The notes under the pieces were generated by a model. The model saw only the letters and a list, made by a program, of their open reading frames with translations. It ran no database searches and was not told the origin of the DNA. The translations under genes were made by a program, and so were the position numbers. Below are positions 1-27,284 of a DNA stretch of 37,477 nucleotides, piece by piece (position 1 is the stretch's first letter; every line of letters starts with the position of its first letter). Origin of the DNA: an uncultured Opitutia bacterium (GTDB lineage Bacteria > Verrucomicrobiota > Verrucomicrobiia > Opitutales > UBA953); NCBI GenBank assembly GCA_903831005.1, contig CAIKWA010000085.1, positions 1 through 37,477 of the forward strand, in the 5' to 3' direction.

Positions 1-3000
1 GGTGGCAATTAAGACAGAGGGCCTCGTAGATGGCTTGCCCGGGCGAGACAACGGCCGGCCCAGTGCTGGCGATCTTCTTGAGATAGGCGGCCTGCGGGGC
101 GGAGAGTTCGGCGGCCAGCTTACCAGCGGTCGAAGCCAAATGCCGTACGGTCTGCTTCAGGGCATAGTCGAGGAACTTATCTGAGGGCTGCTCGACCGCT
201 CCTAAGACGGTGCGCAGCGAAGTCTGACCACCAACATGACTGAGGGCCACGACGGCCTCCAGGCGGACGCGAGGGTGCTTATCGGCGATGGCCTTGGCCA
301 GGCGCGCTTGGACATCAGGTAGTAGGGATGACCATTCCCCGACGACGCGGGCGGCATAGGCCCGAATCCGGAAGTCGGCCGAGGACTGCAGGCTATCCAG
401 CAAGGCAGTGCGGACGAGTCCATGCGACTGCAGTACGCCCATAGCTTCGAGATATTGAGACTCCGAGCGGTCCTTAGCGATAAAGGCATCCACGGCGGCG
501 GCGACCTTATCAGTCGGGCGAGTGAAGAGCAGACGGCGAGCCTGATAACGCGTCCAACGTTCGGGCGAGCCGAGCTGGGTGAATAGCTCACTCTCAGACA
601 TCGACACGAGATCAGGCTGCTTCACGGTCAGCAGGCCCTTGGCAGTGATGCGCCAGATACGGCCATGCGAACGATCGCGGCGCGGGTCGGCGTAGCTGGC
701 CTGATAATGACCGATGACGGCATTGAACCAATCGCAGGCATAGAGTGCACCATCCGGACCCACAGAGACGTCCACCGGACGGAAGGCTTTGCTGGTCGAG
801 ATGATGGGGCTGACGATGCGCTCGGTCTTGAAACCGGAGCCATCGTCGATGAAGCGATGCAAGTCGACGGTGTTGCCGTAATACCCGCCGATAAAAGCGG
901 CGCCTTGGAGGTTTGCCGGCATGGCCTTGGTGCCGACGATATCCACGGAGTTAGACTTCAGCGGCGAATCGAAGAGCGAGTGCGTCCCGGCATATTCATC
1001 GGGGGTCTCGATGGCGCCGAGACCTGGGAGGCTGTAATACCCCGCGATGCGGTCGCCGCTCTTATGGAAGGGCTGGAAATAGTCGTCGAAGGCGACGCCC
1101 CAGCAATTGTGTCCGGCCTTGCCGTACTGGAAGAACGGCTGGAGGCGCTGGTTCTTGAGGTCGTAACGCATGAGGCCCGACTTAGGCAGGCTCACGATAC
1201 CACGCGGCGTCTCGACCCGTGTGATCGCGTGCAAGCCCTGGCTCATCCAAAGCGTGCCATCAGGTCCGTGGCTGATCGAATTCACCAGCTGGTGGGTATC
1301 GCCGACGCCAAAGCCTGACATCAGGACCTCGGTCTTGTCCGCCTTCCCGTCGCCATCGGTGTCGGTCAGTTTGATTAGGCGATCGAAATCACAGACGAGG
1401 ATCGACGTATTGCCGGCTTCATCATTCAGCGGCTCGACGCCCTGGACCATGGTGAGGCCTTCGGCGAAGCGGACGGCCTTGTCAGCCTTACCATCGCCGT
1501 CGGTATCTTCGAGACGGAGGATGTAGTCGCGCGGCTTCACGCCGGGCACCGCCTGCGGATAGGTCGGAGAGCAGCAGACGTAGAGGCGGCCCTTGGCGTC
1601 CCAGGACATCTGGGTGGGCTTGGCCACACCGAGCAACTCATCGGCGAAGAGATTCACCTCGAAACCTTCAGCGACCTTGAAAGTGGCCTGCTCTTCGGCG
1701 GCAGACATCACCTTCTCGGTGCCGATAGCCGGTGCGGACTGCGGAGCAGGTGCGACGGAAGCTTCGCCACGGGCTAAGGACTGGATGTGTTTATCCCATG
1801 ACGAGACCAAGGGCTTATAGGCTTCGAAGTTTTCCTTCAACGAAGGCACCGGACCGAAGCCTTTACCGTAGTTCTGCGAGATACGGTCGCCGTAGACGAA
1901 CGACCAGTTGGCTGGGCGCCAGCAATCCGCCCAGAGGCGATTCTTCTCGATGATAGACGGACGGAGCTTAGCGGAGAGCTCCACGTTATCTTGCAGTCCT
2001 AAGGAGCGCGTAACTTCACGTCCAACGACTTCCAGACCCTTGGAGGAAAGATGCAGTCCATCGGTTGAAGATTCTTTCATCGTGACCTCGGTCAGGTTCA
2101 CGTAGGGAAGCCCGCGTTGCCGGGCAATCTCGGCAACGGCGGCGGCGTAGTCAGCCAAATCCTTCCGATGTTCAGCAGTCGTAAGGTCCGGCAGACGCTC
2201 GGAGCGCATGAAGCCAGCCGGCGACAATAGTACGATGCGAGGCGTATGACGACTCAGGTCATCGAGCAGCTTGTGATAGTCGGCTTTGAACTTGGCCAGT
2301 CCGCCCTGCCCCTTGAGGGCTTCCGCTTGACCAAATTGGACGATCAAGGTCGTGGCGCCGGCGGCCTCGAGCTGACCCTTCCACGGACCGAAATTGAGGT
2401 CACGCCATTGCTCCTGGACGGTATCCGCCTCCCAAGACATGGAGCGGAAGACGGGGTTCTTGGTCGGAAATGCGGCGGCCAACCGTGATTCGATCTCACC
2501 GGACTTAGCTTCGCGGACGAGGTTCTCCTGGCCGACGAAGACGATTACCTCGTCTTGGCCGAGGTCGAACTTCCGATCCTTGAAGGGGGCTGGTGGCGTC
2601 CAAGCGGACTTAGCTTCGCCGAACCGGTTCATGACCGCTTCCTTGGTCGTGACTGGCAGGTCGTTCAACGGATCGAGTACGATGTTCCGGTAGTGGATCT
2701 CGGCCTTGTTATTGCCGTGGATCTGCAAGCCGATGAGGCCATAGGCATCGTCGATAGACGGATTGGTCTCAGTGTAGTCCAGCGTCTGTTTACCGTTGAG
2801 ACGAATCGTGATACGCGGACCTTCGGCCCTGATTTCATATTTGTTCCACTCGCCCTTCTTCTCGAGTTCGGCGATTTCCGACTCGTCCTTGACACCGATG
2901 CCGCCGAAGCCACTGCCGGCACGGGCCAGGAATTTGTTGCGACGGGATTCATCGTAAAGTGAACCGGTGTGCCCGGCACCGATGTCCGCCTGATAGCCAA

Positions 3001-3310
3001 TCATCTCGTTGGGCGGATTGGTCGCTCGGAGGCTACGGAACTGCACGCCGGCATTCACGAAGCCTTCCGTGCCGATGAGCTTATACTCGAGCGTCAGGCG
3101 GAAGTTATAGTAAGTGCGCTTGGTCGTCAGGAACTCGTTGCGGGGGTTGCCGGCCATCGAACCACCCACAATCTCACCGTTCTCCACCCGCCAGACCTTG
3201 GTATCGCCCTCCCAACCCGTGAGCGTCTTACCGTCGAACAACGGTGCCGGCACGGCGAAGAGTCCGAGGACTCCGGCGAACAGAGAGATGATGAGTACGA
3301 AACGCTTCAT
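1..3310 (-). CDS. DUF1080 / SGNH-like / PVC propeller dehydrogenase / HEAT / cytochrome c fusion (3' end cut by window edge)
   Basis: I read this frame from the ATG at 3310 (MKRFVLIISLFAGVLGLFAV, a Sec signal peptide) to the window edge without a stop: 1103 codons. The ORF track omits it because the stop lies outside. Domains in order: DUF1080 (LFDGKTLTGW, about 24-213); an SGNH-hydrolase-like domain (about 252-438); an Ala/Pro linker near 520-530; a propeller of the PVC membrane-bound dehydrogenase type (about 545-830, with calcium-like EDTDGDGKADK); HEAT-like helices; and CLNCH at 1099-1103, a c-heme site right at the edge. It is probably a periplasmic or surface protein that binds or cleaves a glycan and passes electrons to heme c. 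It is the last visible gene of the operon starting at 7970. In the SGNH part the usual GDS nucleophile block reads GQE, so that domain may be non-catalytic. The family assignment is firm; the substrate is unknown. Confidence 0.9.
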   Translation of the reverse strand, partial: MKRFVLIISLFAGVLGLFAVPAPLFDGKTLTGWEGDTKVWRVENGEIVGGSMAGNPRNEFLTTKRTYYNFRLTLEYKLIGTEGFVNAGVQFRSLRATNPPNEMIGYQADIGAGHTGSLYDESRRNKFLARAGSGFGGIGVKDESEIAELEKKGEWNKYEIRAEGPRITIRLNGKQTLDYTETNPSIDDAYGLIGLQIHGNNKAEIHYRNIVLDPLNDLPVTTKEAVMNRFGEAKSAWTPPAPFKDRKFDLGQDEVIVFVGQENLVREAKSGEIESRLAAAFPTKNPVFRSMSWEADTVQEQWRDLNFGPWKGQLEAAGATTLIVQFGQAEALKGQGGLAKFKADYHKLLDDLSRHTPRIVLLSPAGFMRSERLPDLTTAEHRKDLADYAAAVAEIARQRGLPYVNLTEVTMKESSTDGLHLSSKGLEVVGREVTRSLGLQDNVELSAKLRPSIIEKNRLWADCWRPANWSFVYGDRISQNYGKGFGPVPSLKENFEAYKPLVSSWDKHIQSLARGEASVAPAPQSAPAIGTEKVMSAAEEQATFKVAEGFEVNLFADELLGVAKPTQMSWDAKGRLYVCCSPTYPQAVPGVKPRDYILRLEDTDGDGKADKAVRFAEGLTMVQGVEPLNDEAGNTSILVCDFDRLIKLTDTDGDGKADKTEVLMSGFGVGDTHQLVNSISHGPDGTLWMSQGLHAITRVETPRGIVSLPKSGLMRYDLKNQRLQPFFQYGKAGHNCWGVAFDDYFQPFHKSGDRIAGYYSLPGLGAIETPDEYAGTHSLFDSPLKSNSVDIVGTKAMPANLQGAAFIGGYYGNTVDLHRFIDDGSGFKTERIVSPIISTSKAFRPVDVSVGPDGALYACDWFNAVIGHYQASYADPRRDRSHGRIWRITAKGLLTVKQPDLVSMSESELFTQLGSPERWTRYQARRLLFTRPTDKVAAAVDAFIAKDRSESQYLEAMGVLQSHGLVRTALLDSLQSSADFRIRAYAARVVGEWSSLLPDVQARLAKAIADKHPRVRLEAVVALSHVGGQTSLRTVLGAVEQPSDKFLDYALKQTVRHLASTAGKLAAELSAPQAAYLKKIASTGPAVVSPGQAIYEALCLNCH

Positions 3311-3365
3311 GGGGTATCTGAGTTAGGCAATCCGCCAGCGGGATTGTTCCAAGAGTTTAAATGGG

Positions 3366-3441
3366 AAGGTAGGGACGGCACCACGTGCCGTCCTAAGCGT
3401 TGGGCGCAAAAAAGGACAGCACGTGGTGCTGTCCCTACCTT
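3366..3441. repeat. Double-hairpin inverted repeat (REP/BIME-like) inside the operon
   Basis: There are two 28-bp arms in inverted orientation. Arm 1 (3366-3393) contains GGACGGCAC-CAC-GTGCCGTCC and arm 2 (3414-3441) contains GGACAGCAC-GTG-GTGCTGTCC. Each arm is itself a perfect 9-bp stem with a 3-nt loop, and the arms differ at only two positions, which compensate each other inside each stem. The outer AAGGTAGGGAC / GTCCCTACCTT also pair. The element lies in the 161-bp gap between the GMC small-subunit gene and the large fusion gene, so both orientations of the transcript would fold. It resembles interspersed REP/BIME elements; no second copy was seen in this window. Confidence 0.75.
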
Positions 3442-3471
3442 TGACGACCTCAGGCCCGCCCATCCTTGATC

Positions 3472-4143
3472 TCAGGCCAGTCCCAGATGCTTCAATGCCT
3501 CAGGGGTCGGTCCGTCGAAGTTGACGGTCGGAACGTTGCCCACGTATCCGATATCCTTCCAGCCCTGCGGAGTGGTATAGTACCCGCTGGCGGCGAGATA
3601 ACGGAAGCGTCCGAAGAAGTTCTGGGCGGACTTGAACTCCTTCTTGACCGCGGTCTTGCCGCAGATGTCGTCCGCGATCTGGCACTTCTGGGGCTCGGCG
3701 AGGTCGGCGAAATCCTTCTGAAAGCGACGCAGGGCTTCGGCATCGAGCCAATCCAGGCCTGCGGTGATGATTGGGCGATCCTTGTTAGTCTCGTCGTAAG
3801 GGGAGCTGATCCACTCGTCGATGAACTCCTGGACTCCGAGTTGCGAAGGCATTTTGTCGCCGGGATTGTCGGGCGGCAGGATGAGGTCGGTCAGCGAGGC
3901 GGCCGCCTTGCGCTGCTTGGGCGTCAGGGTCAGCGGCCAAAGGTCGCCCGGAGTGTAGTTCTTATTAAGGACCGGGTCTGTGCCGATCCGCTGTCCGCCG
4001 GCGGCGGCGGCGGCAGGAGGCTGAAGCTTATCCTGGGCGGAGGCGTGCGGGAAGATGGCGGCGGCGGCCGCGGCGGCACCGATCCACTTGAGCGCCATGC
4101 GGCGATCGATCTGGCCGGAATTGTCTGCGGGAATATTTTCCAT
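3472..4143 (-). CDS. GMC dehydrogenase small subunit (gluconate 2-dehydrogenase subunit 3 family)
   Basis: The protein is 223 aa. Its N-terminus carries a twin-arginine signal (DRRMALKWIGAAAAAAAIF, about residues 13-31), as expected for a small subunit that escorts a folded FAD partner through the Tat system. The body matches the gluconate 2-dehydrogenase subunit 3 / LacC-type family: LTPKQRKAAASLTDLILP near the start of the mature protein, then EFIDEW and a C-terminal GYYTTPQGWKDIGY. It starts 11 bp downstream of the GMC large-subunit stop, so the two are almost certainly co-transcribed and form a complex. By analogy with LacABC-type glucoside 3-dehydrogenases it may stabilise or export the large subunit. 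The gene does not itself show the substrate. Confidence 0.85.
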   Translation of the reverse strand: MENIPADNSGQIDRRMALKWIGAAAAAAAIFPHASAQDKLQPPAAAAAGGQRIGTDPVLNKNYTPGDLWPLTLTPKQRKAAASLTDLILPPDNPGDKMPSQLGVQEFIDEWISSPYDETNKDRPIITAGLDWLDAEALRRFQKDFADLAEPQKCQIADDICGKTAVKKEFKSAQNFFGRFRYLAASGYYTTPQGWKDIGYVGNVPTVNFDGPTPEALKHLGLA

Positions 4144-4154
4144 GTTCGTAAGTA

Positions 4155-5930
4155 TTAGAGGTTACCCTTGCGCATCTCTTCGACGAGATGATCGGAGGCG
4201 CGCCACGCAAGCGCCATGATGGTGAGCGTGGGGTTCTTGTCGGCGTTGCTGCAGAAGGCTGAGCCGTCATTGAGCAGCAGGTTGGGGATTTCCCAACACT
4301 GGTTCCACCGGTTAGTGACAGACTTCTTGGCGTCGGCGCCCATGATGGCACCACCGACTTCATGGATGATTCGTCCGCCAGCCTCGATGGCCTTAGAGCC
4401 GTCAGCCTGAGGCTTACGGGCCTTGCCGCCAATTGCATCGATGACCATCGCGAAAGTAGCCTCCATGTGGGCGGCCTGCTTGGTCTCGTGCTCTGACCAC
4501 TTCCAGTGGAAGCGCAGGACAGGGATGCCCCACTTATCCTTCACGGTCGGGTCGAGTTCGCAGAAAGAGTTTTCGTTCGGGATCATCTCGCCACGACCGG
4601 CGAAGCCGATGCCCGCGCCATATTTCTGGCGGACTTCTTCCTTGTAGCTCTTGCCGTAGCCGGGGCTGGCGCCGCCGGCACCCAGTCCGGGCATCCGACG
4701 TCCGGTGCCAAACTCAATATGGTAGCCACGCGCGAAGCCGAGCTTGCTGGCATCCTTATAAAGCCACCATGGAATGTAGACATGAGTACCAGCGCCTTCT
4801 TCATTGTGGACCGGTAGATTTTCGAAAGCCGGAACGCTGCCACCGAGGCTCGCGCCGACGGTGTCCATGATGTACTTGCCGACGAGGCCGGAGCCGTTGG
4901 CGAGGCCGTTCGGGAAGCGCTTGGACTTGGAGTTGAGCAGGATGCGGGCAGTCTCGCCCGAGCTGGCGGCGAGGATCACCGCGCGGGCCTTCACGGCGCG
5001 CTCTTGGCCGGTGACCTTGTCAATGTAGATGACGCCGTTGGCCTTACCGTCGGTGCCGACCGTGACCTCACGGGCATGGGCGTTGCAAAGGATGTCCAAG
5101 TTGCCCGTCGCGAGGGCCGGCGGGAGGTGCACAGTCGTCGACTGGTAGTTGGCCTTAATGGAACAGCCACGACCACAATCGGTGGCCCAGAAGCACGCGG
5201 CCCGTTCCTGCATGGCCTTGGCGATGATCTTCTGCGCCTTGGGGTTGTTGGGGTGCAGACGTGCGGGGAAGTTCACGTGATCCTGGCGCGTCGAAAGGAC
5301 GGCACGGTGAATCGGGATCACAGGCAAACCATGCTTAGCAATGTGCTTCTTGACGTACAGTTCTCCGGCACGGGCTTTCGGCGCAGGCAGTAGCGTGCCG
5401 TTCGGTGAGTCCGGCGTATTCTCTAGTCCTTCGTTAGAACCGTAGACCCCGACGAGCATCTCGACCTTGTCGTAATAAGGGGCGACATCTTCGTAACTGA
5501 TCGGCCAGTCAAAACCGAGTCCGTCACGGGAGTAGGGCTTGAAGTCGTAAGGACCGTTACGGAGCGAGATACGTCCCCAGTGATTGGTACGTCCGCCCAG
5601 CATGCGGGAGCGCCACCAGTCGAAGCGCTGCTTCGGGTCGGTCGACGCCTGGGTGTAAGGTTCACCCGGGACTTCCCAGCCACCGTCGACGGTCGCGTCA
5701 TGGAAGCCGAACGGCTTCTCCTTGGTGCTCATCGCACGTAAGGGCGCCTCGGCCTTGGACTGGAACATCGGGGTCTCCGTGACCGGATCGTAATTACGGC
5801 CGGCCTCGAGCATGAGGACCTTTACGCCGTTCATGGTGAGCGTGTAGGCGGACTGTCCGCCACCCGCGCCGGAACCGACGACGATGACGTCGTAGGTGGC
5901 CTGCAGTTCTTTTTCGGTGATGATGGCCAT
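4155..5930 (-). CDS. GMC family FAD-dependent oxidoreductase (sugar/glycoside dehydrogenase large subunit)
   Basis: The protein is 591 aa, full length for the gluconate/glucoside dehydrogenase branch of the GMC family. Residues about 13-45 hold the Rossmann dinucleotide fold (DVIVVGSGAGGGQSAYTL ... LEAG). GGRTNHWGRI follows in the FAD domain, and an extra Cys pair (CGRGCSIKAN) lies mid-protein. The C-terminal catalytic pair is visible as His523 (IIHEVGGAIMG) and Asn566 (NPTLTI). There is no signal peptide, which fits export as a passenger on the Tat-bearing small subunit just downstream. The gene follows the esterase gene by 18 bp. The likely reaction is oxidation of a sugar or glycoside hydroxyl, with electrons going to a c-type cytochrome. 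With DUF1080 domains in the operon, C3 oxidation to a 3-keto sugar is my preferred inference; gluconate- or sorbitol-type oxidation is the alternative. Confidence 0.9.
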   Translation of the reverse strand: MAIITEKELQATYDVIVVGSGAGGGQSAYTLTMNGVKVLMLEAGRNYDPVTETPMFQSKAEAPLRAMSTKEKPFGFHDATVDGGWEVPGEPYTQASTDPKQRFDWWRSRMLGGRTNHWGRISLRNGPYDFKPYSRDGLGFDWPISYEDVAPYYDKVEMLVGVYGSNEGLENTPDSPNGTLLPAPKARAGELYVKKHIAKHGLPVIPIHRAVLSTRQDHVNFPARLHPNNPKAQKIIAKAMQERAACFWATDCGRGCSIKANYQSTTVHLPPALATGNLDILCNAHAREVTVGTDGKANGVIYIDKVTGQERAVKARAVILAASSGETARILLNSKSKRFPNGLANGSGLVGKYIMDTVGASLGGSVPAFENLPVHNEEGAGTHVYIPWWLYKDASKLGFARGYHIEFGTGRRMPGLGAGGASPGYGKSYKEEVRQKYGAGIGFAGRGEMIPNENSFCELDPTVKDKWGIPVLRFHWKWSEHETKQAAHMEATFAMVIDAIGGKARKPQADGSKAIEAGGRIIHEVGGAIMGADAKKSVTNRWNQCWEIPNLLLNDGSAFCSNADKNPTLTIMALAWRASDHLVEEMRKGNL

Positions 5931-5948
5931 GGGTATGGTGGAGTTGTG

Positions 5949-7970
5949 TTACTTGGAAGTGCGGAACTGCCAGGCTTCATTGAAGAAGCCGGCTGCGGGA
6001 ATAGCACCCGGTGCGACGGCGTCGGGGGCCACCTTGAGGTCGACGACGGCCCAATCCGGCAGCTTGGCGACCTGGCGGGCGTTATTCAGGTAGTCGTACT
6101 CGCGGTAGGTGAAGCTGCTATTGATCACGATGTACTTCTGAGGATTCAGAGGGTTCGGGTAGACGAGAATCGGCGCATGGTCGGCAGCCGAGTAGGTCTT
6201 GGCGTCAACGACGAGTTTCTCGGCGGTCCACTGGATCGGTAGCTTAGCGACGATCTTCGCGAGCACGGCATTAGAAGAAGGATCACCCCAGAGGATGAGG
6301 TTATTCTTGGCGATGTCGTCGTCCTTGACCTGCACGTCGGTCTTCGTCGGCGCATCGCCGCGGAACTGACGGCGCCATTCAAAGGAGGCACGCCCCATCT
6401 CGGCTTTGACCCAGCCGCCGACCTTGGCGTTGAACGGCTGGCCGGTCGGGGCGACATAAAGGAAGGAATCCATGAAAGCATCGTCGATCGGGCCGGACAG
6501 GCCATGGTGCTTGAGCGCACCCTTATCGGCGTACTCCAACACCTGCGTCCACTCACCATTCTTTGGATCGCGGGCGAAGGTGGCTTTCCAAGAGCGATCC
6601 GAAGCGGCCTTGACCGAAGTCAGAACCTTGTGGCCGTCGATGGTGACGGCTGTCGGGGCGAACTGGGATTGCACGGAATCTCCGGAGACGAAGTCGAGCG
6701 TGAGACCAGCGACATTCGAGGTCTTTACTTCAATGGAGCGGTCGTCGACCAGCTTGGCGTCGACCTGGGCCTTCTGCCAATGCGTGACCATACGGTCGAC
6801 CTGGACCCAGTGCATGCGATCATAACGGAGGAAGTAGGTGGCGAAGGAGACTTCCCTGGGCGTACGTACGCGGCCGTTGGCGGCGATGGCGGAGAGGCGG
6901 CGCTCGACCTCGACCATGGAGTCGGGATGGATCTTGTGGGCGGTCTGCGGTCCGATGATGTGCGTCAGCTCCATGCCGAGCTTACCCATCTCGCGGGCCA
7001 TCACGTCGGCGGCCTGCTTCTGCTTATCAATCTCGCCGCTGTAGGCGACCGTCGGGGCGTTGCGGAAGTTGATGGCGGTGTCGGTGGCGTTATACCAAGC
7101 CCAGAGGGTCTTCTGCCAGGACGGAATCTTGGAGACGTCTTCGTTCTGGAAGACGTTCAGGAACTCCGGGGTCTCGGAGAAACCAGCGCCAGGATTGATG
7201 CCACACCAGCGATCAGTGTAGTGAGCGCCGAACTGCCAGACAGCCGCGCCACCCATGGAGACTCCGCGGATGAAAAGGCGATCGTCGTCGATGTTGTAGC
7301 TCTTGCGGGCGTGGGCGTAGGCCTCCCAGAGGTCGACTTCACCGGCCATCTTATTGGCGCAGCAATAACGCCCATAAAGATGGAGAACTAGCCGGTTGGT
7401 GGCTGGGAGCTGACCGACGTTCTTCCGGCGATCGCTGAGGAACGCGAGTTCGCTCAGGGTCTCGCCGCGGCCGTGGCACCAGAAATCCAGACGGATCAGC
7501 GAGCCGGCATAGTTATCCGGGATCACCATGCCGTAAGGCTGGACGGAGCCGTCGATCTTCGACTTATAGCCGCGAACGACCAAGCCAGTCTGGCGGGTCC
7601 AAGGAGTCTCTCCCTTGAGGAACGAGGTGGCACGGAGCTTGCCTTCGGTGACCAGGTCATGAGCGGACTTGAATTCGCCCTTGTTGAAATACTCGTTGTA
7701 CTTGCCGGCCCAATCGACTGCTTTGTGGAAGATCTCGATGTCGGCCAAGAATTCCTCGAGGCGCGGGTTCTTCGCCTGAGCTTTGGCGGCGGCGTCGATG
7801 GCCGTACGCAGTTCGGCAAGCTCCTTGGCGAGGGAGACCTTGTCGGCCTCCGGCAAGGCCACAGCCTTATCGGTCGGCGGAATCGGCCGGACGACGGCAG
7901 GGATATTATCCTTCGGGCCATCGGCCAAAGCCACGGCGGCAAAAAGGGAAAGGAGCAGGAGAGAACGCAT
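5949..7970 (-). CDS. Secreted alpha/beta hydrolase (prolyl oligopeptidase/esterase-like)
   Basis: The protein is 673 aa with a Sec signal (MRSLLLLSLFAAVALADG). A helical N-terminal region (about 40-120) precedes a hydrolase domain whose nucleophile elbow is GVSMGG with Ser238; YSGEIDK and TAHKIHPD supply a plausible Asp and His. About 300 further residues include beta-rich and Trp-rich segments (FLRYDRMHWVQVDRM) and a last part (VYPNPLNPQKYIVINSSFTYREYDY) reminiscent of peptidase-associated C-terminal domains in Planctomycetota/Verrucomicrobiota hydrolases. It is the first gene of the minus-strand operon with the GMC dehydrogenase, so removal of acyl groups from a glycan or release of a substrate is a reasonable guess. 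A peptidase role cannot be excluded. Confidence 0.75.
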   Translation of the reverse strand: MRSLLLLSLFAAVALADGPKDNIPAVVRPIPPTDKAVALPEADKVSLAKELAELRTAIDAAAKAQAKNPRLEEFLADIEIFHKAVDWAGKYNEYFNKGEFKSAHDLVTEGKLRATSFLKGETPWTRQTGLVVRGYKSKIDGSVQPYGMVIPDNYAGSLIRLDFWCHGRGETLSELAFLSDRRKNVGQLPATNRLVLHLYGRYCCANKMAGEVDLWEAYAHARKSYNIDDDRLFIRGVSMGGAAVWQFGAHYTDRWCGINPGAGFSETPEFLNVFQNEDVSKIPSWQKTLWAWYNATDTAINFRNAPTVAYSGEIDKQKQAADVMAREMGKLGMELTHIIGPQTAHKIHPDSMVEVERRLSAIAANGRVRTPREVSFATYFLRYDRMHWVQVDRMVTHWQKAQVDAKLVDDRSIEVKTSNVAGLTLDFVSGDSVQSQFAPTAVTIDGHKVLTSVKAASDRSWKATFARDPKNGEWTQVLEYADKGALKHHGLSGPIDDAFMDSFLYVAPTGQPFNAKVGGWVKAEMGRASFEWRRQFRGDAPTKTDVQVKDDDIAKNNLILWGDPSSNAVLAKIVAKLPIQWTAEKLVVDAKTYSAADHAPILVYPNPLNPQKYIVINSSFTYREYDYLNNARQVAKLPDWAVVDLKVAPDAVAPGAIPAAGFFNEAWQFRTSK

Positions 7971-8140
7971 GTCGGGTAAAATAATGAGATGGCCTTGGGC
8001 GGGCTAATCAGGGGTGCTCAAGGTCTAGACTACGACCCACCAGACCGACAAGTGTTCCTTCTAGCCAGATAACGACACGAATGGGTTGCGGCGGCCATTT
8101 TCCTCGCCTCCGCCCTTCCCCTTCCTCACATCTGCGGGCA
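7971..8140. other. Divergent intergenic region (hydrolase operon / uup)
   Basis: This 170-bp stretch separates the start of the minus-strand hydrolase operon from uup on the plus strand, so it should hold both promoters. I see no convincing -35/-10 pair, no strong Shine-Dalgarno and no clear palindrome in it. Confidence 0.4.
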
Positions 8141-9952
8141 ATGGCCCTTCTCAGTCTCCTCGACGTCTATGTCAGTTTCGGCGGCCCGCCCGTCCTGGAC
8201 CATCTTAACCTCCAGATCGAGGAAGGTGAGCGGGTCTGTCTGCTCGGCCGAAATGGCGCCGGCAAGACTACCCTCATGCGCATCGCCGCGGGCGAATCCG
8301 CCCCCGACACAGGTTCGGTCACAATTCCTGACGGCGTCTGCATTGCCCGCCTGACCCAAGAGATTCCTGAGAGCCTCCCGGGCAACGTGCGCGACATCGT
8401 GACCTCCGGTCTCCGCACCGACGACCATTCTGAAGATTGGGAAAAAGACCTCCGGGTCGACGACCTGATCGCCCGCCTCGGCCTCCCTGAGGACCGTGAG
8501 TTCAACGACCTCTCTGGCGGCCTCAAGCGCCGCTGCCTCCTCGCCAAGGCGTTGGCCGCCAAGCCGGGACTGTTGCTGCTCGACGAGCCAACCAATCACA
8601 TGGACCTCGATTCGATCCTGTGGATGGAAGAGTTCCTTCTCGAGCAGAAGATCCCACTCCTCTTCGTCACGCACGACCGCGCCTTCCTGCGCCGCATGGC
8701 CAACCGCATCATCGAACTCGACCGCGGTAAGCTCGCCAGCTGGTCCTGTGACTACGACACCTACCTCGTCCGCAAGGAGGAGCTCTTCGTCGCCGAAGAA
8801 CGCCAGCGTGCCGCCTTCGACAAGAAGCTGGGACAGGAAGAAGCCTGGTCTCGCCGTAGTCCGGGCGCCCGCCGCACCAAATCCAATGCCCGCATGGAAG
8901 CCCTCGTGAAGATGCGCGCCCAGCGCGGTGCGTTGCGCTCCGTCGCCGGCTCAGCCAAGATGGAAATCAGCGAAGCCGAACGCTCCGGCGTCCGTGTCGT
9001 CGAAGCCGAAGAAATCGCCTTCGCCTACCCGGGTGGCACGCCGCTCATCCGCAACTTCAGCCTCGTCCTCAACCGTGGCGACAAGGTCGGCCTCATCGGA
9101 CCGAACGGAGCTGGCAAGACCACGCTGGTTAAGATGCTCCTCGGCCAACTGGCGCCCACCTCCGGCGTCCTGAAGTTCGGCACGAAGATGGAAGTGATTT
9201 ACTTCGATCAGATGCGCGAACAGATCGACGACGATAAAACCGTCGCCGAGAACCTCGCCGGAGACAGCGATACGGTCACGGTGCAGGGCCGCTCACGCCA
9301 CGTGATCAGCTACCTACAGGACTTTCTCTTCGACCCCTCGCGCGCCCGCTCCAAGGCCAAGGTGCTCTCGGGCGGCGAACGTAACCGTCTCCTCCTCGCC
9401 CGTCTCTTCACCAAGCCCGCCAACGTGCTAGTGCTCGACGAACCGACCAACGACCTTGACGCCGAGACCCTCGACGTCCTGGAGGACATCCTCGTGGATT
9501 ACGCCGGCACGCTGATCATGGTCTCCCACGACCGTGCCTTCCTCGATAACGTCGTCACAAGCACGCTGGTCTTCGAGGGCAACGGTGTCGTCACCGAACA
9601 CGCCGGCGGCTACACCGACTGGCGTAACGAACTCGCCCGCGTCGCCGTGGCCAAGCGCACCGCCGCCATCGGCACTATCGCCAAGACTGCCGTCGCTAAG
9701 TCAGCCGCCTCGGCTCAACCTGGCGCCAAGCTCAACAACAAGGAGCGCAAGGAACTGGAGACCCTTCCCGGCAAGATCGAGCAGCTCGAAGCCGAACAGG
9801 CCCAGATCACCGTGCAGCTGGGCGACCCGGAGATTTATAAGGATGGTGGCACCAAGGCCGCGGCATTGCAGAAGCGCCTCCACGCCGCCGAAGCCGAGCA
9901 CTCCGAAGCCTTGGCTCGCTGGATGGACCTCGACGCCCGCAAGGACGCCTAA
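8141..9952 (+). CDS. uup: ABC-F family ATPase Uup
   Basis: The ORF track begins at 8081, but the family N-terminus is MALLSLLDVYVSFGG. The ATG at 8141 is therefore the better start, giving 603 aa. Two ABC modules are complete: Walker A GRNGAGKTT, signature LSGGLKRR and Walker B LLLLDEPTNHMD in the first; GPNGAGKTT, LSGGERNR and LVLDEPTNDLD in the second. No membrane segment is present, as expected for soluble ABC-F proteins. The C-terminal 70 or so residues (NNKERKELETLPGKIEQLEAEQ ... LHAAEAEHSEALARWMDLD) form the coiled-coil domain typical of Uup. ABC-F proteins act on the ribosome or on branched DNA; Uup is linked to limiting precise transposon excision and to ribosome function. It looks like a housekeeping gene with no obvious link to its neighbours. 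Confidence 0.92.
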   Translation: MALLSLLDVYVSFGGPPVLDHLNLQIEEGERVCLLGRNGAGKTTLMRIAAGESAPDTGSVTIPDGVCIARLTQEIPESLPGNVRDIVTSGLRTDDHSEDWEKDLRVDDLIARLGLPEDREFNDLSGGLKRRCLLAKALAAKPGLLLLDEPTNHMDLDSILWMEEFLLEQKIPLLFVTHDRAFLRRMANRIIELDRGKLASWSCDYDTYLVRKEELFVAEERQRAAFDKKLGQEEAWSRRSPGARRTKSNARMEALVKMRAQRGALRSVAGSAKMEISEAERSGVRVVEAEEIAFAYPGGTPLIRNFSLVLNRGDKVGLIGPNGAGKTTLVKMLLGQLAPTSGVLKFGTKMEVIYFDQMREQIDDDKTVAENLAGDSDTVTVQGRSRHVISYLQDFLFDPSRARSKAKVLSGGERNRLLLARLFTKPANVLVLDEPTNDLDAETLDVLEDILVDYAGTLIMVSHDRAFLDNVVTSTLVFEGNGVVTEHAGGYTDWRNELARVAVAKRTAAIGTIAKTAVAKSAASAQPGAKLNNKERKELETLPGKIEQLEAEQAQITVQLGDPEIYKDGGTKAAALQKRLHAAEAEHSEALARWMDLDARKDA

Positions 9953-10210: not shown

Positions 10211-11362
10211 ATGAAAAGCCCTCGTAATGTCCTGCTCGCGCTGGGTTGGTATGATCATCGCCTGCTCCAAGGCATCGCCACCTATGCCTCCGAGCATCGC
10301 TGGCACCTAGCCTCTCATAGCATCATCCACGAGAAGGTCATCCCGTGGGGCTGGGATGGCGACGGCATCCTAGCTTGGCTCGGCGCCGGCGACGACCTGG
10401 CCGACTTCGTCCGCAAGGCCGACAAGCCGACGGTCGACTTCTCCCTGCGCCGTCGGGACACGCCTTTCGCCCACGTCGTCCAGGATCACGCGAAGACCGG
10501 CGAACTGGTCGCCGAACATTTCATCGAGCGTGGCATGAGCCGCTTCTGCTTCTTCAGCGACACCGAGAACTGGTCGCAGGTCGAGCGAGGCGAAGCCTTC
10601 ACAGAAGCCCTTCGTCGTCGCGGACTGGCCTGCGAGCATCTCCGCTGGCAGCCCAAGGGCAAACGAGGCGCCGCTCAGGATGAATGGCAGCGCCGCCGAG
10701 ACTGGTTGATGACCTGCCTCAAGGATGCACCTAAGCCGCTGGCGATTTTCGCCGCCAACGGAACCCTAGCCGTCGAGCTTCGCGAACTCTGCGAAGAAAC
10801 CGGCCTACATGTTCCCACCCAGATTGCGATTGTCGGGATCGACGACTACCTGCTGTCGGTCGGGGCGATTAAGAAATACGTGTCCGGCGTCGATACGAAC
10901 CTCGAAGAACAAGGCTATCGCGGCGCGGAACTACTCGACCGCCTGATGCGCGGCGAAAAGGCGCCGATCGAGCCGATCCGCATCCAGCCGGCCGGCGTGA
11001 TCACCCGTATGAGCAGCGATATCCTCGCCACTGGCCATGAAGGCGTCATCCGGGCCCTGCATCATATTACGGACCACTTCGCTGAATCGCTAGGCGTGAA
11101 GCAACTCGCCACCATCGCCCACATGTCCGAACGCGGCTTACGCCAAGCCTTCGTGAAGCACGTCGGGTGTACGCCGGGCGACCGCCTGCGTACGGTCCGC
11201 ATCGATTCCGCCAAACGGCTGCTCGCCGGCTCCACCGAGAAGATCGAGTCGATCTCCCATCGCTGCGGTTACCCGAACTTGAACTCGTTCTTCGCGGCCT
11301 TCCGTCGCACGGAAAACATGACTCCGGCTGAATACCGCCGGATCATGCGCTTCCGTAGCTGA
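10211..11362 (+). CDS. XylR-type transcriptional regulator (LacI-like sugar-binding domain + AraC HTH)
   Basis: The protein is 383 aa. Residues about 6-275 form a periplasmic-binding-protein-like sensor of the LacI/XylR kind (NVLLALGWYDHRLLQGIATYA at the start; VPTQIAIVGIDDYLLS near 220). It has no LacI helix-turn-helix at the front. Residues about 285-383 are an AraC-type double HTH (LGVKQLATIAHMSERGLRQAF ... IESISHRCGYPNLNSFFAAFRRTENMTPAEYRR). This architecture is that of E. coli XylR and is common in Verrucomicrobiota near carbohydrate genes. It probably senses a sugar and activates a catabolic operon. The 3' end is convergent with the propeller gene, only 9 bp away. Candidate targets are its own promoter (palindrome upstream) and the glycan-related operons on either side; none is proven. 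Confidence 0.88.
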   Translation: MKSPRNVLLALGWYDHRLLQGIATYASEHRWHLASHSIIHEKVIPWGWDGDGILAWLGAGDDLADFVRKADKPTVDFSLRRRDTPFAHVVQDHAKTGELVAEHFIERGMSRFCFFSDTENWSQVERGEAFTEALRRRGLACEHLRWQPKGKRGAAQDEWQRRRDWLMTCLKDAPKPLAIFAANGTLAVELRELCEETGLHVPTQIAIVGIDDYLLSVGAIKKYVSGVDTNLEEQGYRGAELLDRLMRGEKAPIEPIRIQPAGVITRMSSDILATGHEGVIRALHHITDHFAESLGVKQLATIAHMSERGLRQAFVKHVGCTPGDRLRTVRIDSAKRLLAGSTEKIESISHRCGYPNLNSFFAAFRRTENMTPAEYRRIMRFRS

Positions 11363-17048: not shown

Positions 17049-20000
17049 ATGTCATTCCGGTCTCTCTTTGGCCCTATTTTAATAGCCCTGTCGGCGTCCG
17101 CCGCCGACCAGGCACCCGCCCCTACGGCTGCTCAGCTGGAGTTCTTTGAAAAGGAGGTCCGACCAGTCCTTGCCGACCATTGCTACAAGTGCCACGGACC
17201 AAAGAAACAGAAGTCCAGCCTGCGCCTTGATTCCCGCGAACTCATCCTCAAGGGCGGTGAACTCGGACCGGTTGTAGTTCTGGGCAATCCCGATATCAGC
17301 CGCCTGATTCTTTCCATCAACCACGCCAAAGGAAAAGATGTCTACGCCATGCCGGGCGAAGACGAGAAGCTTCCGCCCAAGGCGATTGCCGCGCTGACCG
17401 AATGGGTGCGTCAAGGTTTACCTTGGCCGTCCGAGTCTTCGCCCGTCGCCCATGACCCGAGCAAGCACTGGGCGTTCAAGAACGTTCAGACTCCTTCGTC
17501 ACCCGTCATCAATCCATCCGATGAAGCCAAGATCCGTCAGCCCCTAGATCGTTTCGTACTCGCGAAGCTGAAAGCTGCCGGCCTCGACTTCAATCCAGAG
17601 GCTCCGCGCGAAGTCGTCATCCGCCGCCTCACGCTCGCGCTCTGGGGATTCAATCCTTCTGCGGAAGAAATCTCCGCCTATGTCTCTGACCAAGATCCGC
17701 AGGCGACCGAGAAACTTGTCGACCGTCTGCTCGCGGCACCGGCCTTCGGCGAACGCTGGGCCCGCCACTGGCTCGATGTCGCCCGCTACTCCGACACAAA
17801 GGGCTACGTCTTCTTGGAAGAACGCCGCTACCCTTACGCTTACACTTATCGCGACTGGGTGGTGAACGCCTTCAACCAGGACCTCCCTTACGACCAATTC
17901 CTGCGCCTACAGATCGCCGCCGACCAGATCTCCAAGGACCCCGAGAATAATCGCGACCTCGCCGCCCTCGGCTTCCTGACGCTCGGCCGCCGCTTCCTCA
18001 ATAGCACCCCGGACATCATCGACGACCGCATCGACGTCGTCATGCGCGGCACCCAGGGCCTCACGATGGCCTGCGCTCGTTGCCACGACCACAAGTTCGA
18101 CCCTCTTCCGACGACGGAGTATTACTCGCTCTACGCGATCTTCAACTCCAGCGAGGAACCGAAGGAACTGCCTCCGCTCAAGCCCTTCGCCCGGACGAAG
18201 GAGACCGACGAATTCGACGCCGAGCTCGCCGTGCGGCAAAAGAAACTCAATGACTTCATTCAGAGTCGTTACGAACTTTCGTATTCGCCGGAGAAGACCG
18301 CGGCTTACCTCAACCTCGCCCAAGAGTCCTTTAAGGACACCAAGGTCGACGCCAATCAGAAGGCCAAGGCCTCAAACCTCTACGCGGCCGTGCTCGGCGG
18401 CTGGAAGAATACGCTGAAGTCGAAGCTGACCCCGACGGACCCCATCTGGGGAGCCTGGCTGACCCTGCAGGGTGTGGCCGACGCGGACTTCCCGAAGCGC
18501 TTCGCCGCCCTGCACAACCAGCCGGCCCAATTTGCTGACCCGCTTCTGCGCACCCGCCTCCAGTCCAAGGTTCCGACAAAGCTCGTCGAACTCACCGCCA
18601 CGTACGCCGCCCTCCTTTCCGAAGCCCGCAAGGCCGACAACGCCACTCGAGCTGAGTGGAAGCCCTGGCGTGACCTAATCCTTCATCCCACTGGGCCGAC
18701 AGTGATGACGCCGGCCTCGCTCATCAGCACCTATAACATCGCCGACCGTAACACGCGTACCAATCTCGAGATCCAAGTCGCCAGCTTCAAGGCCACCAGC
18801 CCGAAGAGCCCGCCCCACGCGATGGTGTTACTCGACAAACCGAAGTCGGTCAAAGGCGTCGTCTTTGTCCGTGGCAGCGCCTCCCGCCCGGGTAAAAGCG
18901 TCCCCCGCCAATTCCCCGCCATCCTCACCGACGGCAAGGTGAAGGAATTCACCGAAGGCAGCGGACGTCTCGACATGGCCAACGCCATCGCGAGCAAGTC
19001 GAACCCGCTCACCGCCCGCGTGATGGCCAATCGTATCTGGACCGAACTCGTCGGACGCAGCTTGGTCGAAACTCCCAGCGACTACGGCGTCCGCACCCCT
19101 CTGCCAAAGAACCCTGAGCTACTTGAATACCTCGCCTCGACCTTCATGAAGGACGAATGGTCGATGAAGAAACTCATCCGATCAATCGTCCTCTCCCGCA
19201 CTTTCCTGCAGACGGTCGATGTACGACCCGAAGCCTTGGCGAAGGACCCCGACAATGAGCTCAGCTGGCGCGCCCAACGCCGCCGACTCGATTTTGAAGC
19301 CATGCGCGACAGCATGCTGCGGGTCGCTGGCCGCCTGGACGCCGCCAAGATTGGAGGCCAACCGTTTAATCTCGAAGCGAACTTCTCCGAACCTCGGCGC
19401 ACGCTCTACGGCAGCATCGACCGCCAGAACCTCCCCGCGTTCTTCCGCACGTTCGACTTCGCCAATCCGGACTATCACGTCCCGAAGCGGAACCAGACCA
19501 CCACTCCGCAGCAGGCGCTCTGGATGATGAATCATCCGTTTGCCCGCACCCAGGCCGAAGCCCTCGTCGCCAAGGTCGCCACCCTCTCGACAACGGAAGC
19601 TAAGGTGAACGGTCTTTACCTTTCAGTACTCGGTCGCGCGCCGAAGAAGGATGAAGTCACTCTCGCCCTCGATTACCTCCGGGAAGCCGAACAGGCGCCG
19701 GCGCCGGCTAGCTGGCGCAATGGTTACGGTGGCTGGAACCCGACCACCAAGGTCGTCGCCTTCACTGAGATGAAGGTCCAGACCAAGGATCGCATCGCGC
19801 CAACCGACAAGATGCCGGACAAGGAGTTCTCGCACACCTTTCTCACCGCCAAAGGCGGACACCCTGGCGACAAGTCTGATGCCACCGCCGTCATCCGACG
19901 CTGGACCGCTGGCAGCGCGGGCAATTATCGCATCGAGGGTACACTCGCGGTGACCAGTAAGTCTAGCGACGGCGTCCGCGCGCGCATCATCACCGCCCGC

Positions 20001-20285
20001 AAAGGCATCCTCGCCGAAGTTGTCACCAAGGGAGCATCCTCCGCCCCCGTCAACCTGGCCGAGGTCGAGCTCGCCGCGGGCGAGAGTATCGACTTCATCG
20101 CCGACAACTTCATCGGCTCGAACAGCGACACCTTCGCTTGGTCGCCGGTGATTAAGGACGCCAAGACTGGCGAGATCCTCACCTCCGCCGCCGGCGAGTT
20201 CGGCAAGAAGCCCGATCGACAGTCAGCCCTTTCTTCGTTCGCCCAGGTCCTGCTGACCAGTAACGAATTCATCTTCGCCGACTAA
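17049..20285 (+). CDS. PSD1 protein 1: planctomycete cytochrome c + DUF1549 + DUF1553, with an inserted beta domain
   Basis: The protein is 1078 aa with a Sec signal (about residues 1-19). The N-terminal planctomycete cytochrome c domain has CYKCH at 45-49 (CYKCHGPKKQKSSLRLDS). DUF1549 follows (FGERWARHWLDVARYSDTKGY) and carries a second heme-type motif, CARCHDHKFDPL, at 342-346. A helical linker of about 270 residues leads to DUF1553 (NPLTARVMANRIWTELVGRSLVETPSDYG; RRRLDFEAMRDSMLRVAGRLD; NQTTTPQQALWMMN). Near residue 883 the domain is interrupted by about 170 residues of predicted beta-sandwich sequence, after which the normal DUF1553 ending resumes (SFAQVLLTSNEF). The biochemical function of PSD1 proteins is not established; I infer a secreted diheme protein in glycan breakdown. 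The stop overlaps the next start as TAATG. Confidence 0.9.
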   Translation: MSFRSLFGPILIALSASAADQAPAPTAAQLEFFEKEVRPVLADHCYKCHGPKKQKSSLRLDSRELILKGGELGPVVVLGNPDISRLILSINHAKGKDVYAMPGEDEKLPPKAIAALTEWVRQGLPWPSESSPVAHDPSKHWAFKNVQTPSSPVINPSDEAKIRQPLDRFVLAKLKAAGLDFNPEAPREVVIRRLTLALWGFNPSAEEISAYVSDQDPQATEKLVDRLLAAPAFGERWARHWLDVARYSDTKGYVFLEERRYPYAYTYRDWVVNAFNQDLPYDQFLRLQIAADQISKDPENNRDLAALGFLTLGRRFLNSTPDIIDDRIDVVMRGTQGLTMACARCHDHKFDPLPTTEYYSLYAIFNSSEEPKELPPLKPFARTKETDEFDAELAVRQKKLNDFIQSRYELSYSPEKTAAYLNLAQESFKDTKVDANQKAKASNLYAAVLGGWKNTLKSKLTPTDPIWGAWLTLQGVADADFPKRFAALHNQPAQFADPLLRTRLQSKVPTKLVELTATYAALLSEARKADNATRAEWKPWRDLILHPTGPTVMTPASLISTYNIADRNTRTNLEIQVASFKATSPKSPPHAMVLLDKPKSVKGVVFVRGSASRPGKSVPRQFPAILTDGKVKEFTEGSGRLDMANAIASKSNPLTARVMANRIWTELVGRSLVETPSDYGVRTPLPKNPELLEYLASTFMKDEWSMKKLIRSIVLSRTFLQTVDVRPEALAKDPDNELSWRAQRRRLDFEAMRDSMLRVAGRLDAAKIGGQPFNLEANFSEPRRTLYGSIDRQNLPAFFRTFDFANPDYHVPKRNQTTTPQQALWMMNHPFARTQAEALVAKVATLSTTEAKVNGLYLSVLGRAPKKDEVTLALDYLREAEQAPAPASWRNGYGGWNPTTKVVAFTEMKVQTKDRIAPTDKMPDKEFSHTFLTAKGGHPGDKSDATAVIRRWTAGSAGNYRIEGTLAVTSKSSDGVRARIITARKGILAEVVTKGASSAPVNLAEVELAAGESIDFIADNFIGSNSDTFAWSPVIKDAKTGEILTSAAGEFGKKPDRQSALSSFAQVLLTSNEFIFAD

Positions 20286-21724
20286 TGCAACACATCGACC
20301 CGCTCTCCCTCGGCTCACGCCGCGAGTTCCTCCGACGCGTCGGCATGGGCCTCGGTGGCGTCGCCATGGCCTCACTGCTCCAGCAGGAACTTCGCGGCGC
20401 TGAGATCAAGGTGAATCCGCTCCACCCTCTCGCCGCCCGCAAGGCGCCGTTGCCCTGCAAGGCGAAGCGTGTCATCCATATCTTCGCTAACGGCGGTGCC
20501 TCGCAGGTCGACACGTTTGACCGCAAAATCGCTCTCGATAAATACCACGGTAAGACACTTCCGGGCGACTACATCGCCACCGAACGCAAAACGGGCGCGG
20601 CCTTCCGCTCTCCCTTCACTTGGAAACGCTACGGCAAGAGCGGCCTCGAGGTCAGCGAGCTCTTCGCAAAGACGGCCGAACATGCCGATGACCTCTGCGT
20701 CATCCGCTCAATGAAGGCGGATGTGCCTAACCACGAGCCATCGCTCCTGCTCATGAACTGCGGCGAAGCCCGCCAGGTCCGTCCCTCGATGGGCTCGTGG
20801 GTCACCTATGGCCTCGGTACTGAGAACGAGAACCTTCCCGGCTTCATGACGCTATGCCCCGGCGGCTTCCCCATCCAGGAGACCCAGAACTGGCAATGCG
20901 GCTTCCTCCCCGGAGTCTACCAAGGTAACTACGTCGACACCTCCAAGCGGAGCGTCGAGGAACTCATCGAGAATATCCGTAACTTCGGACTCTCACGCCC
21001 TGCCCAACGTAAGCAACTCGACCTACTCGGTAAACTCAACGCTGCCCACCAGTCCGTCCGCCCGCAGGACGCTGCCCTGGAAGCCCGCGCCCAATCCTTC
21101 GAGATGGCCTACCGTATGCAGCTCGAGGCCACGGACGCCTTCGACATCGGCCGCGAATCCGAAAAGACCCGCGAGATGTACGGCGACACTACGCTCGGCC
21201 GACAGTTCCTTATCGCTCGCCGCCTCGCCGAACGTGGCGTGCGCTTCATCCAGCTCTGGCACGGCGCTGGTCAGCCTTGGGATAGCCATGACGACCTTGA
21301 GAAAAACCATAAGCGTCTCGCGATGGAGGCCGATCAGCCGATTGCGGCCCTCCTCGCCGACCTCAAGCGACTCGGCATGCTCGACGAAACCCTGGTCATC
21401 TGGGGTGGTGAATTCGGCCGCACCCCAACCGTCGAACTCCCGACCCCAGGCTCTAATGCCGGCAAGATCAATGGGCGCGACCACAATAGCCATGGCTTTA
21501 CAATGTGGATGGCCGGCGGCGGCGTGAAGGCCGGCACAGTCTACGGCGAGTCCGACGAGTTCGGCTTCAAATCCGTCAAGGATGTCGTCCACGTGCACGA
21601 CCTCCATGCGACCATTTTGCGTCTCCTTGGCTTCAATCACGAAGAGTTCACCTTCCGTAGTTCCGGCCGCGACTTCCGCCTCACGGACGTCCACGGTAAG
21701 ATTGTCCAGCAAATCATTGCCTGA
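20285..21724 (+). CDS. DUF1501 protein 1 (Tat-exported)
   Basis: The protein is 479 aa. A twin-arginine signal is visible (SRREFLRRVGMGLGGVAMASLL, about 12-33). The body is DUF1501, a family placed with the alkaline phosphatase/sulfatase-like fold. Conserved stretches are IFANGGASQVDTFDRK, VPNHEPSLLLMNCGE, SMGSWVTYGLG, WGGEFGRTP, GRDHNSHGFTMWMAGGGVKAGTVYGESDEFG and HVHDLHATILRLLG. The Asp/His residues in GRDH and HDLH look like metal ligands. The ATG overlaps the PSD1 stop by one base, and its own TGA overlaps the next ATG the same way, so the three genes are translationally coupled. The catalytic role of DUF1501 is unknown; constant pairing with PSD1 suggests they act together outside the cytoplasm. 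Confidence 0.88.
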   Translation: MQHIDPLSLGSRREFLRRVGMGLGGVAMASLLQQELRGAEIKVNPLHPLAARKAPLPCKAKRVIHIFANGGASQVDTFDRKIALDKYHGKTLPGDYIATERKTGAAFRSPFTWKRYGKSGLEVSELFAKTAEHADDLCVIRSMKADVPNHEPSLLLMNCGEARQVRPSMGSWVTYGLGTENENLPGFMTLCPGGFPIQETQNWQCGFLPGVYQGNYVDTSKRSVEELIENIRNFGLSRPAQRKQLDLLGKLNAAHQSVRPQDAALEARAQSFEMAYRMQLEATDAFDIGRESEKTREMYGDTTLGRQFLIARRLAERGVRFIQLWHGAGQPWDSHDDLEKNHKRLAMEADQPIAALLADLKRLGMLDETLVIWGGEFGRTPTVELPTPGSNAGKINGRDHNSHGFTMWMAGGGVKAGTVYGESDEFGFKSVKDVVHVHDLHATILRLLGFNHEEFTFRSSGRDFRLTDVHGKIVQQIIA

Positions 21725-22569: not shown

Positions 22570-22593
22570 TCGGCTTTAAATCGAGAAATCCGT

Positions 22594-22625
22594 TGAAACC
22601 TTTAAAGTGCAGGATTGTCATAATC
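22594..22625 (+). promoter_or_regulatory. Possible promoter before PSD1 protein 2
   Basis: The 64-bp gap between the esterase and the second PSD1 gene is AT-rich and contains TTGAAA and, about 20 bp on, CATAAT preceded by TTGT. Spacing is longer than ideal, so this may only be a minor internal promoter. Confidence 0.3.
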
Positions 22626-22633
22626 ATCACCCC

Positions 22634-25765: not shown

Positions 25766-25769
25766 GACC

Positions 25770-27206: not shown

Positions 27207-27223
27207 GCGGTAAACGACACTTT

Positions 27224-27280: not shown

Positions 27281-27284
27281 TGCC

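Follow-up and report, generated by a model that had tools for sequence, protein, structure and literature searches.

A 37,477-bp contig from a freshwater Verrucomicrobia bacterium (the window, which spans the contig entirely) appears to encode, on the minus strand between positions 7970 and 3472, a secreted LacA-type system for glycoside oxidation. The neighboring gene, which is probably terminated separately, would encode a Sec-exported PVC-type cytochrome with a sugar-binding-like head, serving as a non-dedicated electron acceptor. We regard this joint reading as the best explanation, with a probability of about 0.55. The four genes of a first-pass annotation of this DNA are all present on the minus strand, and their order agrees with the one claimed there: a hydrolase (HYD), a GMC oxidoreductase (GMC), a Tat small subunit (SMALL) and a DUF1080 fusion gene, with 18 bp between HYD and GMC and 11 bp between GMC and SMALL. 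This layout is far beyond chance, since it is kept in species of the same genus. In the loci examined from the genus, HYD lies upstream of GMC with the exception of one (L041), where it was not detected, nor was it detected at loci from outside the genus.

Table 1. Features of the locus in window coordinates
Feature	Position	Strand	Description
HYD	5949..7970	(-)	673-aa secreted alpha/beta hydrolase with a GVSMG nucleophile elbow; weak similarity to Peptidase_S9 / PHB depolymerases
GMC	4155..5930	(-)	LacA-like flavoprotein dehydrogenase, 591 aa
SMALL	3472..4143	(-)	Gluconate_2-dh3 family small subunit, twin-arginine signal, 223 aa
Intergenic palindromes	3369..3438	(-)	terminator-like, between SMALL and fusion gene
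Fusion gene	2..3310	(-)	Sec-type signal, DUF1080, SGNH-like, propeller, HEAT, start of cytochrome c
Fused DUF1080 domain	2678..3244	(-)	GYQxD / YDESRR subfamily
SGNH-like domain	1961..2572	(-)	catalytic Ser and Asn replaced
CLNCH heme-binding motif	2..16	(-)	at contig edge

The flavoprotein matches the GMC_oxred_N and GMC_oxred_C Pfam families, and the His523/Asn566 pair reported in the first-pass annotation is present and invariant in an alignment of eight sequences, one gluconate dehydrogenase included. Three cysteines, Cys246, Cys252 and Cys256, are likewise invariant in this alignment and form a [3Fe-4S]-type site. No signal peptide was evident in the GMC sequence. The assignment of SMALL as a Tat-dependent subunit held, with a match to PF13618 (Gluconate_2-dh3, E 3e-21) and an N-terminal twin-arginine signal (..DRRMALKW..), the RR motif being present in 88 of 89 SMALL open reading frames; a search of SMALL against the PDB gave no match. 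The small subunit would carry the folded FAD/Fe-S flavoprotein into the periplasm, where, judging by family membership, GMC-SMALL most likely oxidizes C3 of a glycoside; a c-type heme would then receive the electrons by way of the [3Fe-4S]-type site. HYD probably prepares or trims the substrate, although this is a guess.

In the GMC phylogeny, which had been proposed as a check, the window protein belongs to a clade (SH-aLRT 99) that pairs as sister group with a LacA-like clade and lies apart from BcGDH and the fructose and gluconate dehydrogenases. The LacA-like clade, which includes an X. sacchari cluster of GMC, small subunit, DUF1080 and cytochrome c genes, was named from gene neighborhood because the tree contains no characterized LacA; choline oxidase was also not among its sequences. 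The GMC subunits of BcGDH and fructose dehydrogenase have a multiheme cytochrome subunit as their partner. These subunits (6A2U, 7W2J) share full-length similarity, the His/Asn pair and the three-Cys Fe-S site with the window GMC but belong to a separate clade. Among GMC relatives of approximately 60–70% identity from Gammaproteobacteria and Gemmatimonadota, a stand-alone DUF1080 gene usually adjoins. In 24 of 37 non-PVC loci, a DUF1080 gene lies on the same strand and at most three genes from GMC; examples of such neighborhoods come from Pseudoalteromonas, Rheinheimera, Microbulbifer, Gemmatimonadota and, within the PVC group, Opitutales. Therefore, glycoside 3-oxidation is the best reading of the GMC function. 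Genes for Gfo/Idh/MocA proteins and sugar isomerases/epimerases are often also present at these loci. An apparent DUF1080-GMC gene fusion on a Steroidobacter contig (L101) was ruled out, as the reading frame passes through masked Ns.

Between SMALL and the fusion gene we identified a terminator-like hairpin, GGACAGCACCACGTGCTGTCC, followed by six T residues (z = -10.9), which alignment and folding revealed. It sits within a near-perfect inverted repeat of ~74 nt that belongs to a genome-wide palindrome family; in the majority of orthologues the gap holds an equivalent hairpin and T-run of another sequence. A promoter scan of positions 3200–8200 found no sigma-70-like site, nor did it pick up the intergenic hairpin. 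The hairpin suits separate termination of a three-gene operon; an intrinsic terminator may still permit read-through. The operon proposed in the first-pass annotation stands for HYD, GMC and SMALL and not for the fusion gene, which the conserved terminator-like hairpin sets apart. A small cytochrome gene (LacC) is absent from the GMC operon, and the nearest c-type heme is that of the PVC-type fusion beyond the hairpin.

The fusion protein consists of a DUF1080 domain (residues 23–211), an SGNH-like domain (247–450), a TIGR02604/DUF7133 propeller (~538–900) and HEAT repeats (~969–1048), with profile matches to PF06439, Lipase_GDSL_2, DUF7133/TIGR02604 (PVC-type heme protein; TIGR02604 above cut-off) and HEAT_2. 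The window copy stops at ..LCLNCH and, because the window is the whole contig, is truncated by the assembly. Its heme domain was read from full-length same-genus orthologues of 1208 aa, which continue past the edge into a C-terminal CxxCH cytochrome c domain that has one heme site and, for its methionine segment, PMPPMG.

The fused DUF1080 domain matches PF06439 with 132 bits (cut-off 26.8). It lacks the E-x-Q-[VIL]-x-D signature and has GYQADI and YDESRR in place, the latter invariant across the fused subfamily. E-x-Q is common to the solved 3-keto-glycoside eliminase/hydratases and the stand-alone DUF1080 partners, a conservation that suggests a catalytic role; its loss does not prove that the fused domain is inactive. 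BT2157 and relatives (3OSD, 8RR2, 8TDA, 9FBE, 8V31) share PF06439 and a concanavalin-like fold with the fused domain but differ in having the signature, and the sequence match to them is partial and weak; 9FBE has 2-hydroxy-3-keto-glucal bound in its cleft. The best match in both sequence (109 bits) and fold (TM 0.72) is domain 1 of BT3469 (4JQT), with its corresponding GYQxE and YDEARR motifs, which places the fused domain in a BT3469-domain-1-like branch (GYQxD/YDESRR); BT3469 differs in having two DUF1080 domains and neither heme nor propeller. Our literature search found no function for BT3469 domain 1. The structure model of the fused domain also resembles CBM66. The first-pass annotation had taken this domain for the enzyme acting on the 3-keto product and had named missing active-site residues as evidence against it; as E-x-Q is lacking and the domain falls in the BT3469-domain-1 branch, that objection partly applies. 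In the SGNH-like domain the catalytic Ser (GDS) and Asn (GxND) are replaced by GQEN and FGQAE, while DGLH is kept, and both residues are lost in every DUF1080-fused example aligned. The DUF1080/SGNH head most likely binds sugar or has an uncharacterized activity, and the fusion heme is a plausible putative acceptor for GMC and other periplasmic sugar dehydrogenases, dedicated to none.

The fusion gene lies next to GMC in 20 or more species of the genus, and the two co-occur above expectation in the class sample (18 of 30 fusion-carrying genomes against 57 of 384; Fisher p = 2e-9, calculated without phylogenetic correction), which together favor some functional link. An obligate partnership, suggested by 8 of 8 cases in a phylum sample, was rejected because of the 18/30 in the class sample and because no clear association was seen within either of two families (f112 and f122). 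Elsewhere in Verrucomicrobiota, other families supply six full fusions that have no linkage to GMC, and GMC is missing from 12 of the 30 fusion-carrying genomes. If the fusion were nevertheless the dedicated partner of GMC-SMALL, its heme would accept the electrons from C3 oxidation and its DUF1080 domain would cleave the 3-keto product. The genus-level adjacency, the uncorrected co-occurrence, the pairing of GMC relatives with DUF1080 elsewhere and an operon in a sister species (G041) that opens with a PVC-heme-ThuA fusion 7 bp ahead of HYD all point this way. We consider it unlikely given the missing E-x-Q and nearest matches to BT3469 domain 1 and CBM66, the preceding hairpin, the unlinked or GMC-free fusions, and the PVC cytochromes, which are not enriched beside GMC (7 of 143 near genes versus 11 of 202 far genes at the same loci). 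The coupling of oxidation and cleavage in one polypeptide, proposed initially, is thus possible and unsupported by the key residues, the hairpin and the distribution of the fusion; cleavage by the fused DUF1080 domain is not our default reading.

An autonomous dehydrogenase, in which the TIGR02604 propeller oxidizes a sugar bound by the DUF1080/SGNH head, the heme accepts the electrons and the GMC operon is functionally separate, would have a layout like that of the fungal AA12 pyranose dehydrogenase, in which a binding module, a PQQ propeller and a cytochrome are combined. The propeller model best fits the PQQ domain of that enzyme and soluble PQQ glucose dehydrogenase, and the unlinked fusions and GMC-free genomes are in keeping with autonomy; however, the model is poor (pLDDT 67), the propeller sequence has no meaningful PDB match and none to a solved PQQ enzyme, and the genus-level adjacency would be left unexplained, making this quite unlikely. 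PVC-type heme-binding CxxCH proteins (TIGR02604/TIGR02603), including Lac161_ORF7, share the propeller, HEAT and single-heme cytochrome c with the window fusion, which differs by its additional DUF1080 and degenerate SGNH head. Purified Lac161_ORF7, from a Chthoniobacter-like soil bacterium, released glucose from lactose with a Km of 1.8 mM (PMC5342196); compared by layout, it has the same Piru_Ver_Nterm-HEAT_2-cytochrome c order. A glycosidase whose propeller/HEAT/heme part cleaves beta-galactosides is a slight prospect for the fusion, as this is one report from E. coli expression, in which the catalytic residues are not known and no DUF1080/SGNH part was reported. Verrucomicrobiota DUF1080-propeller-heme proteins might instead be self-contained oxidize-and-cleave glycan enzymes, in which the propeller or a docked GMC enzyme would make the 3-keto sugar, a YDESRR-type DUF1080 head would eliminate the aglycone, and the tethered heme would conduct the electrons away. 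We hold this very unlikely; if true, it could also account for the beta-galactosidase activity scored for a PVC-heme protein.

The combination of LacABC and DUF1080 has been published, and in Caulobacter both sets of genes are important for lactose utilization (PMC9007349). Our preferred reading of a LacA-type system beside a separately terminated cytochrome shares the GMC flavoprotein, small subunit, DUF1080 protein and cytochrome c with it; the difference is that DUF1080, here from another subfamily, and the cytochrome are separate there and joined here in one PVC-type protein of ~1200 aa behind a hairpin. The cytochrome-fused DUF1080 is new. The Pfam name "3-keto-disaccharide hydrolase" calls for caution, as it spans at least two branches differing in conserved residues. 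In freshwater Verrucomicrobia, the planctomycete-specific cytochromes related to PVC-type heme proteins have been described as of unknown function (PMC5615132). These genomes encode many PVC-type heme proteins, with 26 TIGR02604 match stretches counted in the present one, which is incomplete. They constitute a large orphan family, for which a DUF1080-headed member beside a LacA-like dehydrogenase offers a concrete, testable substrate class, the 3-keto-glycosides.

The locus was found as described in the first-pass annotation, with the four-gene order and the domain layout of the fusion (a PVC-type heme protein) confirmed on the minus strand and successive gaps of 18, 11 and 161 bp. Contig C85 (37477 bp, all of it covered by the window) belongs to a 62%-complete assembly, and the host is a Verrucomicrobiota bacterium of Opitutae type, probably a freshwater organism. 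Reading past the window edge, a check proposed in the annotation, was possible with full-length fusion orthologs of the same genus (1208 aa), whose C-terminal cytochrome c domain is of the single-heme kind and contains both CLNCH and PMPPMG. A few genes away lies a XylR-like regulator (periplasmic-binding-type sensor domain and AraC helix-turn-helix), a possible sugar sensor. Three consecutive PSCyt2-PSD1/DUF1501 gene pairs are also present. The second pair is separated from the third by two stand-alone DUF1080 genes, one of 216 aa and the other, with a double domain, of 431 aa; a sulfatase gene lies past all three pairs.

Window coordinates of the locus and of neighboring features
Feature	Coordinates	Strand	Remark
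HYD, secreted alpha/beta hydrolase	7970-5949	minus	
GMC flavoprotein	5930-4155	minus	
SMALL, Gluconate_2-dh3 small subunit	4143-3472	minus	
Fusion, DUF1080-SGNH-propeller-HEAT-CxxCH	3310-2	minus	cut by contig end
XylR-like regulator	10211-11362	opposite	
Three PSCyt2-PSD1/DUF1501 pairs with DUF1080 and sulfatase genes	17049-33958		

The closest solved structures to GMC were BcGDH (138 bits) and fructose dehydrogenase (131 bits). The annotated His523 and Asn566 are correct and invariant in an alignment of eight GMC proteins, as are Cys246, Cys252 and Cys256 (8/8). Since these cysteines align with the [3Fe-4S] cluster ligands of BcGDH, a one-electron route out of GMC is expected. The window protein fell, in a tree of 54 rows, inside a clade with 99% support, whose sister clade (support 95) includes a Xanthomonas sacchari gene from a cluster of GMC, small subunit, DUF1080, cytochrome c, Gfo/Idh and epimerase; BcGDH/FDH and one gluconate dehydrogenase were placed apart. 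Named matches to GMC at 94-96% identity were MAGs labelled Opitutae, Opitutus or Akkermansia, the nearest named record not marked MAG was Opitutae bacterium BS10, and homologs with ~60-70% identity came from Gammaproteobacteria, Gemmatimonadota and Planctomycetota. A twin-arginine motif precedes the domain in 88/89 SMALL ORFs. At the homologous loci L078 (10800-14108) and L089 (10505-12709) a PSCyt2-type cytochrome gene directly 3' of GMC replaces the small subunit, and in L183 (11198-13387) such a gene directly follows GMC-SMALL.

Outside the PVC group, 24 of 37 GMC loci carry a DUF1080 gene on the same strand within three genes. Pseudoalteromonas has consecutive genes for Gfo/Idh, epimerase, MFS, DUF1080, GMC and small subunit, and one Opitutales genome (G230) combines small subunit, GMC, Gfo/Idh and epimerase with a stand-alone DUF1080 of canonical motif. 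Price et al. (2022; PMC9007349) showed with fitness data that lactose use by Caulobacter involves both LacABC and a DUF1080 gene. Based on the GMC tree position, these neighbors and the Caulobacter data, the function best supported for these three genes as an operon is glycoside 3-oxidation, with substrate and regiochemistry inferred. The interpretation of the locus as an oxidation and cleavage operon held in part: its oxidation half is likely, given the GMC tree and the DUF1080-bearing neighborhoods.

The cleavage half depends on the DUF1080 domain of the fusion. Among 81 DUF1080 domains from the gathered loci, 35 have E-x-Q alone, including nearly all stand-alone genes beside GMC, and 34 have GYQxD and YDESRR, including nearly all PVC-heme fusion heads; L158 and L161, which fit neither set, are among the exceptions. 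The E-x-Q..LD pattern, read on 3OSD and close relatives, is that of the solved 3-keto-glycoside eliminase/hydratases 3OSD/8RR2/8TDA/9FBE (BT2157 type). The best profile match of the fused domain was domain 1 of 4JQT (BT3469; 109 bits), also the top match of its AlphaFold model (pLDDT 88; TM 0.72), compared with TM ~0.5-0.6 for the eliminase/hydratases and 0.73-0.77, normalised by target, for CBM66. The conserved Q/D/YDESRR residues imply a working site, which may serve binding or catalysis. The SGNH Ser and Asn are lost in the window and in all aligned DUF1080-fused examples; a Runella protein whose annotation shows no DUF1080 head retains GNS.

In the orthologs, the coding strand of the SMALL-fusion gap holds a hairpin followed by a T-run (GACCGGAGG-loop-CCTTCGGTC-TTTTT), with a compensatory change in L039 (GGCCGGAGG-loop-CCTCCGGCC), and the window has GGACAGCACCACGTGCTGTCC-TTTTTT at the same place, within a ~74-nt near-perfect palindrome (z = -10.9). 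A second conserved block, TTGGAACAATC...GCGGATTGCCTAAC, lies immediately 5' of the fusion start. The simplest reading of these sequences is that the fusion would be its own transcription unit, with read-through possible. In the window, an inverted pair (3369-3393 and 3414-3438) of the palindrome family GTAGGGACRGCACSNYGTGCYGTCC makes up this terminator-like structure. The family looks like a REP-type repeat and occurs, with at most 3 mismatches, at 32 places in the window's genome and at 0 in a backwards control.

HYD-GMC-SMALL and the fusion are neighbors in at least 20 species of the genus, and several others (G001, G041, G051 and G033 among them) have the GMC operon without it. Two of these species encode PVC-heme proteins that carry ThuA (trehalose utilisation) at the C-terminus: the gene in G041 (L162, 4836-9947), where the fusion is absent, stops 7 bp short of HYD-GMC-SMALL, and the one in G001 (L163, 12531-17711) lies ~4 kb downstream. 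Six genomes of other families encode the full DUF1080-SGNH-propeller-HEAT-heme protein away from GMC (57-59% identical across the N-terminal 456 aa). Sister species (G021, G039 and G032; L158, L159 and L160) have a longer DUF1080-SGNH-propeller-heme protein off the GMC operon (~1500-1700 aa, ~42% identical), with two DUF1080 domains in L159 and L160. In G040 (L034, 9195-9198), a frameshift or an assembly error breaks the fusion gene within its DUF1080 domain, giving two frames that overlap. All fusion genomes of the phylum sample had GMC (8/8), a rule that fell to 18/30 in the class sample, against 57/384 overall (Fisher p = 2e-9, uncorrected for the tree), and no clear association was seen within families f112 and f122. 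PVC-type cytochromes were no commoner near GMC (7/143 genes beside, 11/202 away, same loci), and the window's 62%-complete genome has 26 TIGR02604 match stretches. Because of this distribution, the equal PVC frequency and the number of TIGR02604 stretches, adjacency alone is weak evidence of a fusion-GMC partnership. The proposal that a putative electron acceptor and the cleaving enzyme share one polypeptide is weakened by the DUF1080 subfamily, the terminator-like hairpin and the distribution.

The propeller model was poor (pLDDT 67), and its top fold matches were PQQ sugar dehydrogenases, including AA12. Lac161_ORF7, a Chthoniobacter-like soil protein reported as a lactose-cleaving enzyme (PMC5342196), shares the propeller-HEAT-cytochrome layout. 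Both leave room for sugar chemistry of the fusion's own. LacABC and DUF1080 systems are already known; what the window adds to them, and what is new, is an adjoining PVC cytochrome with a DUF1080-type head.
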